DNA of 64,000 nt from Deltaproteobacteria bacterium (GTDB lineage: Bacteria > Desulfobacterota > Binatia > Binatales > Binataceae): assembly GCA_021794015.1 (NCBI GenBank), contig JAJYRQ010000005.1, positions 1-64,000 of the forward strand. Direction: 5' to 3'. Positions 2,536 to 51,639 of this stretch are shown one piece after another (position 1 is the stretch's first letter; each line of letters opens with the position of its first letter). The notes under the pieces are model-generated. The model was not told the DNA's origin, ran no database searches, and saw nothing but the letters and a program-made list of their open reading frames with translations. Position numbers and translations under genes: made by a program.

Positions 2536-3504
2536 TCACGCACGGTAGCCGTACCACCGCAAAAGCGGCCAAGTTAATAGTGTAGCTAGGCGGCGCTCTT
2601 TGCGGGAAAGCTTCTCGCGCCAGGCCTCATCAGCGCTGATCGGCACCCGGCCGACCGCAAAGCGTCCCGGGTTGCCGTCGATAGCATGGTTGACCTTCAG
2701 GTAGGCCGCGCCGTCTCGGATGAAGCCAAAGTCCCGCCGGACATCCAGTCCGAGCGCTCGCAACGCTGCGTCCAAAACCGCGCCAGGCTGCCTGGCGAGA
2801 TCTTCATAGCGAATGCGCGCGTAGCGCAGCCGGCGCCTTCCCAGCCAAGCAATGGCCGCGCATGAAGTATTATAAACGGACCATTCCAGCGCGCTTTGCA
2901 GCGGCCCCTGCGTTTTCATCAACTCTTCCACGCCGGGCTGCCGGTAGTTGGGTTTTTTTCGTCGATTAGAGAAAGCCACCGCGCGGCTGTCTCGGGTCAG
3001 GTGAAGGATCCGCAAGGCAACCCCCGGCACCCTCGATAAAACGAGCGCATAGGCAGGGTCCTTCGATGAATCCACGATTATCCTACTACCGCTGACGCGA
3101 GCGATCGCGGACATGAGCTCTCCGGTAAGCTGCCGATACTCTTTCAGAAGGTGCCCGGTTCGCCGTCTGAGCGCCGTCCCGTCGGCTACCGCCAACGCCG
3201 GCAAATAGCGCATCCGCTCAACCGTTCGCTGCAACTCAAGCACGCGCTCAAGCTCTGCCCCGTCGAACTTGGCAAGGCCTTCTCTCACCACCTCGCGCCA
3301 AAACGGGCAAAGCGAAAAGCGCTGCCTGCAGCCGCAGAGCTCGTCGCGCCTACAACCCTCCTCCCAAATGTACTTCAACTCGCCCACGAAAATTACGCCA
3401 GGCAGCTCGCCCAGCAACTGCCCGAGCAGGGTGCTGCCGCTCCGAATATAGCCGCCGATATGCAGCACTGAAAGTTGCTCGTTCACTGCGTCCGACCGGT
3501 GCAA
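2536..3504 (-). CDS. PAPS-dependent sulfotransferase family protein
   Basis: The 322-residue protein has the 5'-phosphosulfate-binding loop RSGSTL at residues 21-26, and the 3'-phosphate-binding region LHLTRDSRAVAFS near residues 168-179. These are the two hallmarks of the P-loop-like sulfotransferases that use PAPS. It probably sulfates a sugar of the surface polysaccharide made by this locus, because it sits between flippase and polymerase genes. The start is uncertain: TTG 3504 has AGGG eight bases upstream, whereas GTG 3486 would remove six residues and has no clear ribosome site. A cysteine-rich stretch near residues 51-66 is unusual and could bind metal or form disulfides. Confidence 0.85.
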   Translation of the reverse strand: MHRSDAVNEQLSVLHIGGYIRSGSTLLGQLLGELPGVIFVGELKYIWEEGCRRDELCGCRQRFSLCPFWREVVREGLAKFDGAELERVLELQRTVERMRYLPALAVADGTALRRRTGHLLKEYRQLTGELMSAIARVSGSRIIVDSSKDPAYALVLSRVPGVALRILHLTRDSRAVAFSNRRKKPNYRQPGVEELMKTQGPLQSALEWSVYNTSCAAIAWLGRRRLRYARIRYEDLARQPGAVLDAALRALGLDVRRDFGFIRDGAAYLKVNHAIDGNPGRFAVGRVPISADEAWREKLSRKERRLATLLTWPLLRWYGYRA

Positions 3505-3600
3505 AGCCTCATCCCTGTTTGCGAAAGTCCACTCATTGCTCCGCCTCCAATACCGCTCAACGAAGGGCGCGGCAGGCGTTGCGCAATACCTGATTGCTGC

Positions 3601-4938
3601 CTACTTCGCCCGTGCGCCGACGGTCTCGGGCGAGGTGAACACCCACGGCGGCTTAAGCTTGACCCCGGCCCGGCGTTCGGCGAGCAGGTAGAGCCATGCG
3701 TTCCACGCGCTGAGCGCCGCCGCGCTACTGGCGGCGGCGCCCAGCGCACCCCAAAGCGGCACCAGAATAAGGCAGCCGACGACGCTTACCAGCGCGGAGC
3801 AGCCGACGGCGATGAGGCTCGCATCCTGATTGCCCGAAATGATCATGAGGTAGCCGACCGGCCCTGTGCCGGCGTTAACGAGCTGCCCGGCAATCAATAC
3901 CAGCAGGGGCAATTCTCCTTGGGAAAACTGAGAACCAAACAGCCTCATGACCGGCGCCCGCAGTGAGGCGAGTATCAGTGCCAAGCCGCAAGACGGCCAG
4001 AAAGCCCAGCGCGTCATCGAGCCCACCAGCCGCTCCAGCCCGGCGCGATCCCGGCGAGCGAAGAGTTCCGACATCATGAGGGCCCCGCGTGCGTTGACCG
4101 CGTTCAGAATCAACGGCACCAAGGCCGCGGTGCTGGCGGCGGCGGCGTAAACGCCGACCTCTGCAGGTCCTCTGACTGCCCCTAGAATGAGCAGGTCGGC
4201 ACGGGCGAGCAGCACCGAACTCAGCGTCACGCCCAGAAGAGGCAGCGCCGCCCGCAGCCATTCATTGGTCCGAAGGCAGCGCTCGGCCGCGCCGCTCGAA
4301 GCCATCCGCTGGCAAGCCCGCCACTGCAACGCCACAATTACAGCCAAGGCCGCGGCGCGCGCAGCCATCGCGCTCTGGCCGGTGAGTCTGCGGAACCCAA
4401 GCAGCGCGACACCGAGCATCAGCGTGAGAAGCGGGTCCGCAAGAATCGGCATCGAGTAGAGCGCAACTCGATCGAGCGCCCTTAGAGTCTCAGACTCAAG
4501 CGCCGATAGCGCCAGCAACGGAGAGATCCAGATCCCGAGCATGAGAGTGCCCGATTCGAAGCGGCGAGGCGAAACCGCCTGCAGCACTATAACCGCGACC
4601 AAGCCAGCCACGCCGGCCGCCGCCAGCGTGAGCTGCCGGCTGCGTGTCATCATGCCACGCATAAGCGGCAACTGCCCGCGTTCCCGGTAGTCGGGAATAT
4701 ACCGGATCATGGCCGTCGGCAGCCCGAGCCCTGCCAGCGTTGAGAGCACCTGAGCCAAGGCAGAGGCGTAGGAATAATCCCCGTACCCGACCGGCCCGAT
4801 CCAGCGGGCGAAGAAGATTTGCAGGAGGTAACGGGTTGAATAGCCCCCGGCCTGGAGCGACATCACGGTAGCCGCGCCCCGAAGCAAGGGCCCGCGCGCT
4901 CCGCCGCTGACGCTTGCGGTACCTGCCTCGCCCAACAT
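3601..4938 (-). CDS. wzx: Polysaccharide flippase (Wzx/MOP superfamily)
   Basis: The protein has repeated hydrophobic helices spread over its whole length, around twelve to fourteen. An early GGYSTRYLLQIFFARWIGPV segment followed by YGDYSYA is the usual opening of Wzx/RfbX lipid-linked oligosaccharide flippases. It would move undecaprenyl-pyrophosphate-linked repeat units across the inner membrane for the Wzy-like polymerase encoded downstream. The reading frame extends to a TTG at 5001. I prefer ATG 4938 because the added residues are hydrophilic and precede the normal family start, but no strong ribosome site decides it. Confidence 0.85.
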   Translation of the reverse strand: MLGEAGTASVSGGARGPLLRGAATVMSLQAGGYSTRYLLQIFFARWIGPVGYGDYSYASALAQVLSTLAGLGLPTAMIRYIPDYRERGQLPLMRGMMTRSRQLTLAAAGVAGLVAVIVLQAVSPRRFESGTLMLGIWISPLLALSALESETLRALDRVALYSMPILADPLLTLMLGVALLGFRRLTGQSAMAARAAALAVIVALQWRACQRMASSGAAERCLRTNEWLRAALPLLGVTLSSVLLARADLLILGAVRGPAEVGVYAAAASTAALVPLILNAVNARGALMMSELFARRDRAGLERLVGSMTRWAFWPSCGLALILASLRAPVMRLFGSQFSQGELPLLVLIAGQLVNAGTGPVGYLMIISGNQDASLIAVGCSALVSVVGCLILVPLWGALGAAASSAAALSAWNAWLYLLAERRAGVKLKPPWVFTSPETVGARAK

Positions 4939-5049
4939 CTTCACGACGTGACCGACCAACTGGCCTGACGGCCGAGGACGCTCCCCGTTGCTAACCCACA
5001 ACTTGAGACGGCGGCCACCCTACCTCACCTGGCGCGCGGGCGGGGCATC

Positions 5050-5130
5050 TCAGTGGGAAAAACTCGTGACGGCGGCGATGACACACTCGGTCCACTCGGG
5101 CTTCATGTTGGAGTGAAGCGGAAGGGTCAC
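5050..5130 (-). pseudogene. Remnant of a DegT/DnrJ aminotransferase 3' end (duplicated fragment)
   Basis: On the minus strand this fragment encodes VTLPLHSNMKPEWTECVIAA and a few more residues ending in SFSH and a stop. It matches the last 26 residues of the intact aminotransferase at 5892-7016 with only four differences, and the nucleotide match is about as close over 80 bp. Upstream of it the similarity fades and no full aminotransferase frame exists. It is best explained as the leftover 3' end of a second or duplicated copy. The toxin/antitoxin pair at 5195-5730 sits between the fragment and the intact gene. Confidence 0.8.
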
Positions 5131-5194
5131 AGCACCTGGAATAGAGATGGCTAAAGAACTCGACACTAGTCGGCGCGGCGATGGCTATCACGCG

Positions 5195-5470
5195 CTAACG
5201 CCGCTCCCGCGTGTGCCAGAGCCGCAGCACGTAGAGCGTCGATTGCCGAATCTCGTAACGCATCTCATAGCGCCCCACCAGGATGCGACGCACCTCGCGC
5301 GGCTCGAACTCCTCAAGCTTCTCGCCGATGCGCGGATGCTCCAAAAGCCCTGTGGGCGCCGCAGCCAGAGACTGCGCGGCACGCACCGCGGCCTCGCTGT
5401 TGACCGAGGCCAGGAACTCGTAAAGCCTTACCAGATCGGACAGCGCCCTCGCTGCCCATTTCAACTCCAT
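5195..5470 (-). CDS. ParE/RelE-family toxin
   Basis: The 91-residue product has the ParE/RelE pattern: an N-terminal W-x-x-x-A-x-x-DLxxLYEFL helix, a central EHPRIGEKLEEF turn, and a C-terminal strand pair with VGRYEMRYEI and VLRLWHTRERR. The last motif is the usual basic end of plasmid-stabilisation toxins. The gene overlaps the upstream antitoxin-like gene by 10 bp, a normal arrangement for a co-transcribed toxin-antitoxin pair. ParE members target DNA gyrase and RelE members cut mRNA on the ribosome; which applies cannot be told from sequence alone. Confidence 0.85.
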   Translation of the reverse strand: MELKWAARALSDLVRLYEFLASVNSEAAVRAAQSLAAAPTGLLEHPRIGEKLEEFEPREVRRILVGRYEMRYEIRQSTLYVLRLWHTRERR

Positions 5471-5730
5471 CCGCGCGGCGCCGGCAGCGGCGTGTCCGTG
5501 CCTAGGCTGCCGGCCCAGGCCTGCACCGCCTGATGGCCAATGACACGCCCGGCATCGACATCGCCAAGCGCCTCCAGCGTAAGCCGCCTGCGCTCTTCCT
5601 CCTGGTCAATCCAGGCAGCTAAGGCTTGTTTGATGATCCAGCCGCGCGAGCGTTCCAGGCGAGCAGCGATCTGATCCACCTTCCTGGCAAGCGGCAATGG
5701 GACGTGCGCGGTGAGCACCTTGGTGTTCAT
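5461..5730 (-). CDS. Ribbon-helix-helix (CopG-like) antitoxin
   Basis: From ATG 5730 the protein is 89 residues. It starts with a strand (KVLTAHVPLPLA) and two helices containing LERSRGWIIKQALAAWI, the ribbon-helix-helix DNA-binding fold of CopG/ParD-type antitoxins. The C-terminal part would wrap the toxin. The frame can also start at ATG 5763, which adds eleven residues. I prefer 5730 because it gives the normal fold start and leaves the 15-bp palindrome at 5757-5771 as an upstream operator. The pair is likely autoregulated through that site. Confidence 0.8.
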   Translation of the reverse strand: MNTKVLTAHVPLPLARKVDQIAARLERSRGWIIKQALAAWIDQEEERRRLTLEALGDVDAGRVIGHQAVQAWAGSLGTDTPLPAPRGWS

Positions 5731-5756
5731 AGGCGGACGACCGGGCTCAACCTTCT

Positions 5757-5771
5757 TAATCATAATGATTA
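5757..5771. promoter_or_regulatory. Palindromic operator candidate of the toxin-antitoxin pair
   Basis: TAATCATAATGATTA is a perfect 7+1+7 inverted repeat in an AT-rich patch (about 5757-5785), unlike the GC-rich surroundings. It lies 27 bp upstream of the preferred antitoxin start, where ribbon-helix-helix antitoxins normally bind to repress their own operon. Confidence 0.6.
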
Positions 5772-5891
5772 GATTCGATTAAATCAACTCGCAGGCCCTG
5801 TTTGCCGGCGCTGCCGCCGTATCGGCGTCTTGCCTCTCGGGCCGAAAGCCTGTGCCCGGTTCCATAGGCCGGAATGCCCGTGCCGCCTCCG

Positions 5892-7016
5892 TCAGTGGAA
5901 GAAGCTGGTGACGGCCTCGATCACTCGCTCGGTCCAGTCGGGCTTCATGTTGGAGTGAAGCGGAAGCGTGACCACCTCGGAACAGACCCGCTCGGTCACC
6001 GACAAGTCGCCGCATCGGGCGTCCCGGTAAAAACTGTGCCGATGCACCGGGATGAAGTGAACTCCCGCGCCAACGCCGCGCTTCTTAAGATGCTCGATAA
6101 GCGCGTCGCGCCGCCCTCCCAACACCCGAAGCGAATAGATGAAGGACGAAACGTTGGAAAAGTCGGTTGCCGGAACAATCACGCCCTCAAGCCTGGAAAA
6201 GGCCGCGCTGTAGGCCCGGCATACCCGGCGCCGGCTCTCGATGAACTCATCCAGCCGCTTTAGCTGCGAAATCCCCACGCTCGCCATGATGTTGGTCAGA
6301 TGGTAGCGAAAACCCAGACAGACAACGTCGTAGTCCCAGGCCCGGCTGTTCGCATAGCGCAGCATCGTATCCTTGTCCACGCCCAAAAGCCGCAAATGGC
6401 GAAGCCGCTCAAGCTCCTTTTCGCTGCCGGTCACCACCGCTCCGCCGTCGATGCTGGTGATTATCTTGACCGGGTCGAAGCTGAAACAGGCGATATCACC
6501 GAAGCCGCCGATCGGCTTGTCGGCCACGGCTGTGCCAAAGGCGTGCGTGGCGTCCTCGATCACTCGCAGATTATGCCGCCTGGCCAGGCGGTAGACGCCC
6601 GCGTGATCGCACGGGATGCCGGCAAAATGAAGCGGCATTATCGCCCGCGTGCGCGGCGTGATAAGCGCTTGCGCTTTCTCGCAGTCGATCCCGAGATTGT
6701 CCTCCCGGATGTCGCACATCACGACCTCGGCGCCGGTAGCCCTTATCGCCTGGTGGTCGGCAACATAGTTGAACGAAGTGGCGATCACCTCGTCCCCGGG
6801 GCCGACGCCAGCCGCCAAAAGCGCAATATGCAGCGCCGCCGTGCCGGTGTTGGTCGCAACCACGTAGCGCCCGTTAAGCCCAAGGCGCTCGGCTATCCGC
6901 TCCTCGAACTCCCTGGTGAGCGCGCCCATACCAAGCCATCCGACCTCCAGCGCGTCGGTCAGATGCTTTAGCGTGTCGACGCCGATATGCGGTGCGAAGA
7001 CGGGGATTTCTTCCAT
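5892..7016 (-). CDS. DegT/DnrJ/EryC1/StrS-family PLP aminotransferase
   Basis: The 374-residue protein shows the full family pattern. ATNTGTAAL lies near residues 54-62 (phosphate binding), IEDATHAFG near 153-161, the Schiff-base lysine K184 in FSFDPVK, and the GGAV tail after it. Family members transfer an amino group to a 3- or 4-keto nucleotide sugar. Here it would make the amino sugar that the GNAT protein (9248-9955) could then acylate, although the two genes are separated by a repeat-rich insertion. ATG 7016 has an AGGG ribosome site that belongs to the repeat ending just upstream. A duplicated fragment of its 3' end lies at 5050-5130. Confidence 0.93.
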   Translation of the reverse strand: MEEIPVFAPHIGVDTLKHLTDALEVGWLGMGALTREFEERIAERLGLNGRYVVATNTGTAALHIALLAAGVGPGDEVIATSFNYVADHQAIRATGAEVVMCDIREDNLGIDCEKAQALITPRTRAIMPLHFAGIPCDHAGVYRLARRHNLRVIEDATHAFGTAVADKPIGGFGDIACFSFDPVKIITSIDGGAVVTGSEKELERLRHLRLLGVDKDTMLRYANSRAWDYDVVCLGFRYHLTNIMASVGISQLKRLDEFIESRRRVCRAYSAAFSRLEGVIVPATDFSNVSSFIYSLRVLGGRRDALIEHLKKRGVGAGVHFIPVHRHSFYRDARCGDLSVTERVCSEVVTLPLHSNMKPDWTERVIEAVTSFFH

Positions 7017-49619: not shown

Positions 49620-50177
49620 TCACTGGCGTCTCGCTAAGCCCAATCCCTCCAGCAGCCCCACGGCCTTATCCACGTCCTGTTCCGACAGTTCCCAACCCAG
49701 CGCCCGCGCCTGCTCTTTAATCTGGGGCACAGTTACCGCGCCGCCCTGTTTACGCACGATGAAGAACGCTTTCGCCGCCACAGACAGCTCCCGGTAGTCG
49801 GGATCGCCGCACTTCTTGATATTCTCCACCGTGGTTCGCACGTTATCCAGTTTCTCTCCCCCGCGCCTCTGAAGCTCTTCCACAACCTTCTCTCCGTCCG
49901 AGGTGAGCTCGTAATCATAACGCCTCATTTCACCAAAGAATTCATTTTGCACGACGCCGAACCCGAGCCTCTTTTCCTCGATAAAGCCCAGGCTCTTCAA
50001 CTCGCCCACAGCCTGCTCGATCGCGGGAGAAAACGGCCCGTAATAGTGCGCCTTGAATCCCAATCCGAGGCTTGCCAGTACGTCGGCGAAGTAGCAGACC
50101 TTCTGAAGCATAGTTTTCCCACGGATTTTGCCTCCGTAAGCGTCCAGTACCACCAAAACCACGTGTCTAGGCTTCAT
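49620..50177 (-). CDS. YwgA-like small protein partnered with HD phosphohydrolase
   Basis: The 185-residue protein begins with a short helix-turn region, then GKTMLQKVCYFADVL, HYYGPFSPAIEQAVGELKS, LGFIEE and YDYELTSDGEKVVEEL. This order matches the B. subtilis YwgA family and is reminiscent of Panacea/SocA-type antitoxin domains, which share the LQK-YF and YGP-hS patterns. A helical C-terminal domain of about 70 residues follows. ATG 50177 has an excellent GAGGAGGG ribosome site that lies inside the end of the HD gene; the two overlap by 11 bp, so translation is coupled. The function is unknown; antitoxin or regulatory subunit is my inference. Confidence 0.8.
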   Translation of the reverse strand: MKPRHVVLVVLDAYGGKIRGKTMLQKVCYFADVLASLGLGFKAHYYGPFSPAIEQAVGELKSLGFIEEKRLGFGVVQNEFFGEMRRYDYELTSDGEKVVEELQRRGGEKLDNVRTTVENIKKCGDPDYRELSVAAKAFFIVRKQGGAVTVPQIKEQARALGWELSEQDVDKAVGLLEGLGLARRQ

Positions 50178-51639
50178 CTTTACCCTCCTCTAAGACCTCG
50201 CCGCCAATCCGCTCCAGCGCCTGACGAATCTTGCTTTGATACTCCCTCTGCCGCTCTGCCTTGTCGCGGGCGCCCGGGTACGTTACTGGGGCGTACACCT
50301 CGATGATCGTCTCCTTTGACGCCTCGTCGATCGACCTGAAAAGCTGTGACCCCTCCTCGAACTTCCTCCTCCGGCCCTCGGTAACGACAAGAATAGATGA
50401 CTCGGAGTTCCGCGACTGCTCGCGAACGGAGTCGAACACAAATATCCGCACCATTACGAGATTCGGGTCCACCGAAAGGAGCTCGCCGACCTTACGCTCA
50501 AGCGCGAGCATTTGCCCTCTGGTCAGCGACGCCAGCCTGTTGCGGACCAGAGGATCCGCGAACTCGGCGACTCTGACTTTAGCGACCCTCTTGTGCAGCC
50601 TCCTGCCGGCAAGCTGAGAGAACAGTCGCTTTGCGTAGCCCTCGGGCGTCCGCTCAGATAGGACCTCGTTAATCAGCCTGTCATCCGTCCAAGACTTGTA
50701 GGCTTCAAGAAACTCTGGGCTCCCGTCCCACGTGAATGCGCGCTTCAGCCAGTCGATGCGATCTTGCTCTATGCCCAGCCGTATGGCGCGATCTATCATC
50801 AGGTCGGTGATGGACCTGATCTTATGGCGATAAACCTGAGCCGTCATATAATACTTGGCAAGAACGAACTGCTCCAGTGCGTTAATACCATCTTCCTTGA
50901 TGGCCAAATAGCGATCAGATTCGTCAGAGAAGGTGCAGAGGGTGCCAATTAGGCGGTCAAGGTCGTAGAGTCCGTACCTGACACCGCAAAAATAGCTGTC
51001 TCTAAGCAGATAATCCTGCTTATCCGCATCCAAGGGACCGGATACGATACCTTCCACGAGCGAATCGCCATGTTCGCCACCCAGGATTGCGGTGATCTTC
51101 TCTCGATCATAGTCGCTGAGCGGTCTCGCCAGGTCCTTGTCGGTCAGTATGATCTGCTTCGTCAGTGCTTCATGAATCTGCTTGCTTGGCTCAGCCGGCC
51201 GTACCGATGCGAAGGTCTCCAAGATCGGCTCCGAGACGTGCGAGAAGGGTCCATGGCCGACGTCGTGAAGCAGAGCGGCGAGCCGGACCAGCCTTTTTTC
51301 TTCGTCCTCGAGGCCGACCGCGTCTGCGATCCTGCCGGCCACGTACATGGCCCCAATGGAGTGCTCGAAGCGCGTGTGAAGGGCGCCCGGATAGACCAGG
51401 CTCGCCAGGGCAAGCTGGCGAATTCGTCGCAGCCGTTGAAAGACGGGCGAATCGATCAACTGCTGCTCGACGTCGCTGCGTGCGATAAACCCGTGGACCG
51501 GGTCCCTTAGCTCGCGTCTCACAACCGTCCCAGCAAGTTGCGCGCCTTCGATAGAGCGCAATTGTTTGAGTTCTCTTAGCGGGTATACGTGATTTCGAGC
51601 CGAGGCGAAGAACGGCGAAACCCGCATCTCGCTGCCCAT
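50167..51639 (-). CDS. HD-domain dNTP triphosphohydrolase-like protein (SAMHD1/YwfO-type)
   Basis: The 490-residue protein has RRELRDPVHGFI at residues 41-52, then the HD set: EHSIGAMYVAG (H93), ALLHDVGHGPFSH (H125, D126), and LDADKQDYLLRD (D206). The pattern and length match the SAMHD1-like group, including the Enterococcus EF1143 and B. subtilis YwfO enzymes, which hydrolyse dNTPs. The C-terminal 150 residues are helical and charged, a probable regulatory region. A YwgA-like gene is coupled downstream. Possible roles are dNTP control or phage defence by nucleotide depletion; neither is shown here. The start (ATG 51639 or 51627) lacks a strong ribosome site. Confidence 0.88.
   Translation of the reverse strand: MGSEMRVSPFFASARNHVYPLRELKQLRSIEGAQLAGTVVRRELRDPVHGFIARSDVEQQLIDSPVFQRLRRIRQLALASLVYPGALHTRFEHSIGAMYVAGRIADAVGLEDEEKRLVRLAALLHDVGHGPFSHVSEPILETFASVRPAEPSKQIHEALTKQIILTDKDLARPLSDYDREKITAILGGEHGDSLVEGIVSGPLDADKQDYLLRDSYFCGVRYGLYDLDRLIGTLCTFSDESDRYLAIKEDGINALEQFVLAKYYMTAQVYRHKIRSITDLMIDRAIRLGIEQDRIDWLKRAFTWDGSPEFLEAYKSWTDDRLINEVLSERTPEGYAKRLFSQLAGRRLHKRVAKVRVAEFADPLVRNRLASLTRGQMLALERKVGELLSVDPNLVMVRIFVFDSVREQSRNSESSILVVTEGRRRKFEEGSQLFRSIDEASKETIIEVYAPVTYPGARDKAERQREYQSKIRQALERIGGEVLEEGKDEA

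Follow-up and report, generated by a model that had tools for sequence, protein, structure and literature searches.

In animals, enzymes of the SAMHD1 type stop viruses, and in bacteria dNTPases stop phages, but the way in which bacteria restrain such enzymes is known in few cases. In the Clover system (CloA-CloB), an HD-type dGTPase that is toxic alone is restrained by the product of the neighbouring gene, CloB, which is a nucleotidyltransferase and the source of the inhibitor p3diT (PMC12265719). The two-gene locus analysed here lies on the minus strand of the window (the whole stretch of 64,000 nucleotides under study), where an HD phosphohydrolase gene is followed by the gene of a small partner protein, and by analogy with Clover it may join an effector to a restraint imposed by its neighbour. 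The restraint here would be a protein clamp that acts by binding; unlike CloB, the partner has the fold of a DarG domain, and it has no nucleotidyltransferase match in Pfam or Foldseek searches.

In DarTG modules the toxin gene darT precedes the antitoxin gene darG, the same order of functions that we would assign to the HD gene and its partner. The partner shares its fold and the motif LQK-YF ... YGPYS with the C-terminal domain of DarG (PDB 7yk3). However, the partner (185 aa) has no macrodomain by Pfam, and DarT is absent from the pair, its place beside the partner being taken by an HD phosphohydrolase. The DarG C-terminal domain holds DarT inactive by mimicking single-stranded DNA, according to Deep et al. 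(2023) as cited in PMC12170906.

The HD protein resembles EF1143 and human SAMHD1 (PDB 3irh, 4lrl, 2o6i) in its HD and HD_assoc_2 domains, its complete catalytic set and its whole-protein fold, but it is only about 25% identical to them, and a conserved small partner follows its gene. The YwfO-YwgA pair of Bacillus, seen here in Priestia megaterium (L104), comprises the same two families in the same order 23 nt apart, whereas its sequences are distant, its HD protein belongs to a different clade and its neighbourhood is metabolic. We found no paper on the function of YwgA in the literature searched. Panacea/SocA antitoxins (PF13274, PMC8832971) share remote profile similarity and the LQK and GP motifs with the partner, which is nevertheless missed by the Pfam model and carries GPYS instead of the Panacea GPV.

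That defences can sit within other immune operons is already known (preprint of Payne et al. 2024, as cited in PMC12137116), and small HD-partner cassettes inside restriction and similar operons resemble that arrangement as cited. Our pair has no model in PADLOC-DB, where we recovered only weak matches (dGTPase, 1e-10; DarG, 3e-7; PDC-M19A, 0.002). With no such model, and no Pfam family for the partner, we regard the pair as undescribed, although the Payne et al. preprint may include it.

The coupled genes and their products

The sequence-only reading described two translation-coupled ORFs, and the minus-strand ORFs, their overlap and the GAGGAGGG in the HD 3' end are all found as described (Table 1). 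The HD gene ends in GAG GAG GGT AAA GAT GAA GCC TAG. It is the partner start at the ATG within AAAGATGAAGCC that yields the 11-nt overlap and places GAGGAGGG 5 nt before the ATG. Both genes diverge from their counterparts in L003 with a third-position bias, which together with their linkage across phyla argues that the pair is not a chance arrangement. The extent assigned to the HD ORF stands as an ORF but probably not as a protein. Close homologues begin near residue 40, a stop codon lies just upstream of the equivalent start in L003, and residues 1-38 have pLDDT below 50 in the AlphaFold2 model, so the first 38 residues are probably untranslated and the internal GTG is the likelier start.

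Table 1. Positions of the two genes and of the elements at their starts and junction within the window.
Feature	Position	Strand	Remarks
HD-domain phosphohydrolase, SAMHD1/EF1143 type	50167..51639	-	PF01966 HD + PF19276 HD_assoc_2; 490 aa as longest ORF, ~452 aa from likely GTG start at 51525
Likely true HD start codon, GTG (V39)	51523..51525	-	start site of close homologues; residues 1-38 unconserved, low-confidence
Shine-Dalgarno-like GAGGAGGG inside HD 3' end	50183..50190	-	5 nt before partner ATG
Overlap of HD stop with partner ATG (ATGAAGCCTAG)	50167..50177	-	11 nt
YwgA-like / DarG-C-terminal-domain-like partner	49620..50177	-	185 aa; no Pfam family

Profile searches, proposed as a check in the sequence-only reading, assign the HD protein to PF01966 (E 1.7e-12) and PF19276 (E 5.8e-20). 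At the sequence level it also matches the Aquifex protein 2hek, EF1143 and SAMHD1, and by fold it is closest to the dGTP-bound structure of EF1143 (Foldseek, 3irh, E 1.1e-21). The catalytic set first read from the sequence (H93, H125-D126, D206) is invariant across 25 relatives, as are R90, H129, H134, K207, Y210 and D214, the counterparts of SAMHD1 R164, H210, H215, K312, Y315 and D319; the equivalents of the SAMHD1 metal ligands H167, H206, D207 and D311 are invariant in 25/25. At the guanine-nucleotide allosteric site of SAMHD1 (D137, Q142, R145) the Q and R equivalents are invariant, and the D equivalent is present in the window copy and in 14/25 relatives, a variation that we count against reading the pair as an effector and its inhibitor. 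Sequence and fold suggest an enzyme of the SAMHD1/EF1143 type, presumably with dNTPase activity.

Even with the E cutoff raised to 1, the Pfam search assigns the partner to no family. Its predicted structure (pLDDT 92.5, pTM 0.88) has only two significant matches in the PDB, chains B and D of 7yk3, the complex of DarG with DarT from Mycobacterium tuberculosis (7yk3_B, E 3.5e-6, TM 0.69), and a profile search retrieves the same DarG chain (E 0.0026). On the predicted model, then, the known fold closest to the partner is that of the C-terminal domain through which the antitoxin DarG binds DarT. The LQK-Y and H-YGP-S motifs are near-invariant in an alignment of 29 homologues, in which G-T--QK--Y, H-YGP-S and Y-----AAK form the invariant or nearly invariant elements. 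The initial impression that the partner recalls Panacea/SocA was right about kinship to antitoxins but not about the closest relative. Membership of that family is ruled out by the lack of a PF13274 match, and the profiles retain it as remote kin (hhalign probability 86% with the near set of partners and 96% with the distant set). Elsewhere in the same genome, 11 kb outside the window, a SocA/Panacea-domain protein is encoded (G000, contig C3:75439-75711). Two proteins of archaeal viruses, A8TKI0 of SSV4 and A0A2H4RBN9 of Sulfolobus ellipsoid virus 1, show weak fold similarity to the partner in BFVD (E 5e-4 and 8e-4); it is possible that they are viral mimics.

Linkage of the two genes across genomes

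Our genome scan with the HD protein as query recovered 44 relatives. Among the closest 30, 28 carry the partner directly 3', one is cut by a contig end and one is a broken fragment; the 14 more distant relatives are without it. The 28 are distributed over about ten phyla, always in the order HD then partner and mostly with overlaps of 1, 4, 8, 11 or 14 nt. In the tree, the partner-bearing HD clade that contains the window copy has support of 100/99 and, with Desulfofundulus (L026) included, covers about ten phyla, while other partner-bearing HD genes fall elsewhere. The pair is mostly present in a single copy per genome. Adjacent double pairs were seen at L007:2003-5062, where the second HD gene is truncated, and at L026:6026-13247, where two divergent HD-partner types are about 5 kb apart.

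Linkage was also tested independently of the HD gene by searching whole genomes with the partner profiles A1 and A3 (99.7% by hhalign). Profile A3 consists mostly of partner matches found regardless of HD, although 2 of its 12 rows (L026, L104) came via HD. Distant partner matches likewise have an HD gene upstream. The partner-only search returned 73 loci from 645 genomes in three phyla; six had turned up before, five of these as HD pairs. An HD gene lies upstream at 42 of the 73, and another 23 belong to macro-domain DarG proteins, of which they form the C-terminal domain. Six more are next to other genes, and two were classed as contig edges. Free-standing partner copies therefore follow an HD gene in 42/48 cases. 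Conversely, among PF19276 loci in the window's phylum with room for a partner, only 6/20 have one. The partner thus depends on HD and not the reverse, and the co-occurrence anticipated by the sequence-only reading holds in one direction. HD genes without a partner (14/20, and Listeria, which keeps HD without YwgA) indicate that HD alone is not generally lethal; we count them against an effector-inhibitor function. The suggestion that Bacillus ywfO and ywgA represent the same two families is borne out, the Priestia YwgA matching profile A1 at E 9e-13 in its place 23 nt after HD, and on these sequence matches we consider YwfO-YwgA to be the same pairing. The expectation of a widespread yet undescribed association also holds.

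A candidate Rosetta-stone fusion of HD and partner (L216, one of the two contig-edge loci) turned out to join HsdS, not HD, to the partner domain. Such single ORFs, with a DarG-C-terminal-like/YwgA-like domain and a type I HsdS, occur at L216 (G914, 100-2106) and L217 (G092, 3466-5271), in the latter adjoined by a GmrSD-like gene. An intact solo partner gene directly follows uvrA at L119 (G066, 3257-3832), with no HD gene nearby.

Genomic settings and origin of the window copy

Defence genes surround or directly adjoin the cassette at 8 of about 54 pair loci inspected, in keeping with the anti-phage link that had been suggested, but the window copy has none within about 10 kb by ORF inspection, and at most pairs no defence gene was detected within about 5 kb. 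The pair lies inside type I restriction operons in the orders HsdS, HD, partner, HsdR (L011) and HsdS, HD, partner, HsdM (L023), and follows type III Mod and Res in L024. It is framed by HmaA upstream and HmaB and HmaC downstream in L224, all on one strand with short gaps. A PLD-SNF2 helicase precedes it and DarG follows it in L013; an AAA helicase with an MTES_1575 nuclease precedes it in L232. In L114 and L116 it adjoins a DrmMI/type IIG-like (DISARM-like) methylase and an HKD-SNF2 helicase, with AbiEii also in L114. Outside these eight, L235 has a type III restriction gene at a distance of about 3.5 kb. The DarG-like macro protein that comes straight after the pair in L013 occupies 5332-6393, and we noticed no DarT downstream of it.

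The 74 proteins that surround 16 of the pairs gave matches to 41 PADLOC models. In a rough, small control around metC, with phyla unmatched to those of the pair loci, only 4 models were matched at 1e-20 in 72 proteins from ten relatives in the window's family, with 3 matching proteins each; all four models probably stem from a single helicase gene, present at three syntenic loci.

The window pair is flanked by a metC-like gene and metal-transport genes. Its GC content is 57%, whereas the window has 65.7%, and its GC3 is 0.70, whereas most neighbours have about 0.82. A full-length near partner occurs in only 2/41 genomes of the window's order. The same genome holds a second, decayed N-terminal partner fragment, very like that of the window and with no HD gene (L051, contig C33 at about 77.6 kb). 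The metC gene is kept in 33/39 relatives but its neighbours are not, which leaves no syntenic frame in which to recognise an empty site. It is likely that the pair was acquired horizontally.

Proposed function and its alternatives

The sequences, the folds, the conserved linkage and order, and the location of part of the family within defence operons are observed here, and from them we infer a possible two-gene cassette, in which a dNTP-depleting anti-phage effector would be restrained by a DarG-type inhibitor. We give this proposal an even chance. The HD protein would be a dNTP triphosphohydrolase of the SAMHD1/EF1143 type, presumably tetrameric and activated by nucleotides, able to drain cellular dNTPs. 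The partner, made by translational coupling, would be a free-standing relative of the DarT-inhibiting domain of DarG, and its likeliest action would be to hold the HD enzyme inactive by direct binding. Once a phage infects, this restraint might be released or outweighed, such that dNTP levels would drop and the phage could no longer make DNA. Because the pair has been kept together in about ten phyla and is frequently set in anti-phage operons, it is probably an undescribed, leashed virus-defence module. It is tempting to speculate further, with somewhat less than even confidence, that the module is a widespread anti-phage system whose inhibitor domain is a leash of general use, standing by itself where it restrains SAMHD1-like dNTPases, joined to a macrodomain where its target is DarT, and joined to HsdS in certain type I restriction systems; the cassette would move into restriction, Hma and DISARM-like operons and, embedded there, provide a back-up defence. 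If so, bacteria would have a second way to leash a dNTPase, by a protein clamp as opposed to the nucleotide signal of Clover; a family outside Pfam, including the YwgA of Bacillus YwfO-YwgA, would gain a function; and the DarG inhibitor domain would be a reusable antitoxin part.

The main rival is housekeeping control of dNTP pools, in which the HD enzyme would trim dNTPs or dispose of damaged nucleotides, and the partner would regulate it as a subunit (an inhibitor, activator or localiser) with no role against phage. YwfO has been proposed to be a housekeeping pyrophosphohydrolase acting on modified nucleotides (PMC4993169), the Priestia/Bacillus pair sits amid metabolic and cell-envelope genes, genomes mostly have one copy, and the window pair has no defence neighbours; the Bacillus setting and the window setting both also count against an effector-inhibitor function. 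Yet a housekeeping pair would not be expected to show this sporadic distribution and deviant GC, the recurrence inside restriction, Hma and DISARM-like loci, or the antitoxin-domain fold of the partner, and we consider it unlikely, if a serious contender.

More doubtful is the possibility that the partner binds nucleic acid and, as a sensor or adaptor, turns on or guides the HD enzyme on meeting phage DNA. Foldseek returned weak matches of the partner to PadR-type winged-helix regulators (E about 0.01), and the DarG domain acts by single-stranded DNA mimicry in the work of Deep et al. (2023) as cited in PMC12170906. However, the PadR matches reach a TM of only about 0.35, the sole significant fold match is an inhibitor domain, and the partner pI spans 5-9.9 across homologues with no conserved basic character, leaving this reading improbable. 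A separate candidate role for the partner, that of an acidic DNA mimic, is unsupported because of the same pI range.

A toxin-antitoxin addiction module that chiefly maintains itself or a mobile element would account for a small, coupled and sporadically spread cassette with an antitoxin-like fold and for the decayed second partner copy, but is very unlikely, as tblastn with the window protein found no partner homologue among 72,556 plasmids and 50,697 phage records, and a conserved place within defence operons fits a defence role better. With no partner matches to that query there, we also set aside the idea that the pair is plasmid- or phage-borne. HD homologues do occur on plasmids and prophages, and among seven such records examined the partner is present only in the one from Priestia. 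Two of the plasmids, Sinorhizobium meliloti pSymA (L106, 2638-6425) and Labrenzia pBCL1 (L105, 2803-6422), share a conserved operon of radical SAM, 3'-5' exonuclease, AAA ATPase and SAMHD1-like HD genes, which in S. meliloti lies beside CBASS genes (DncV-like, ThiF).
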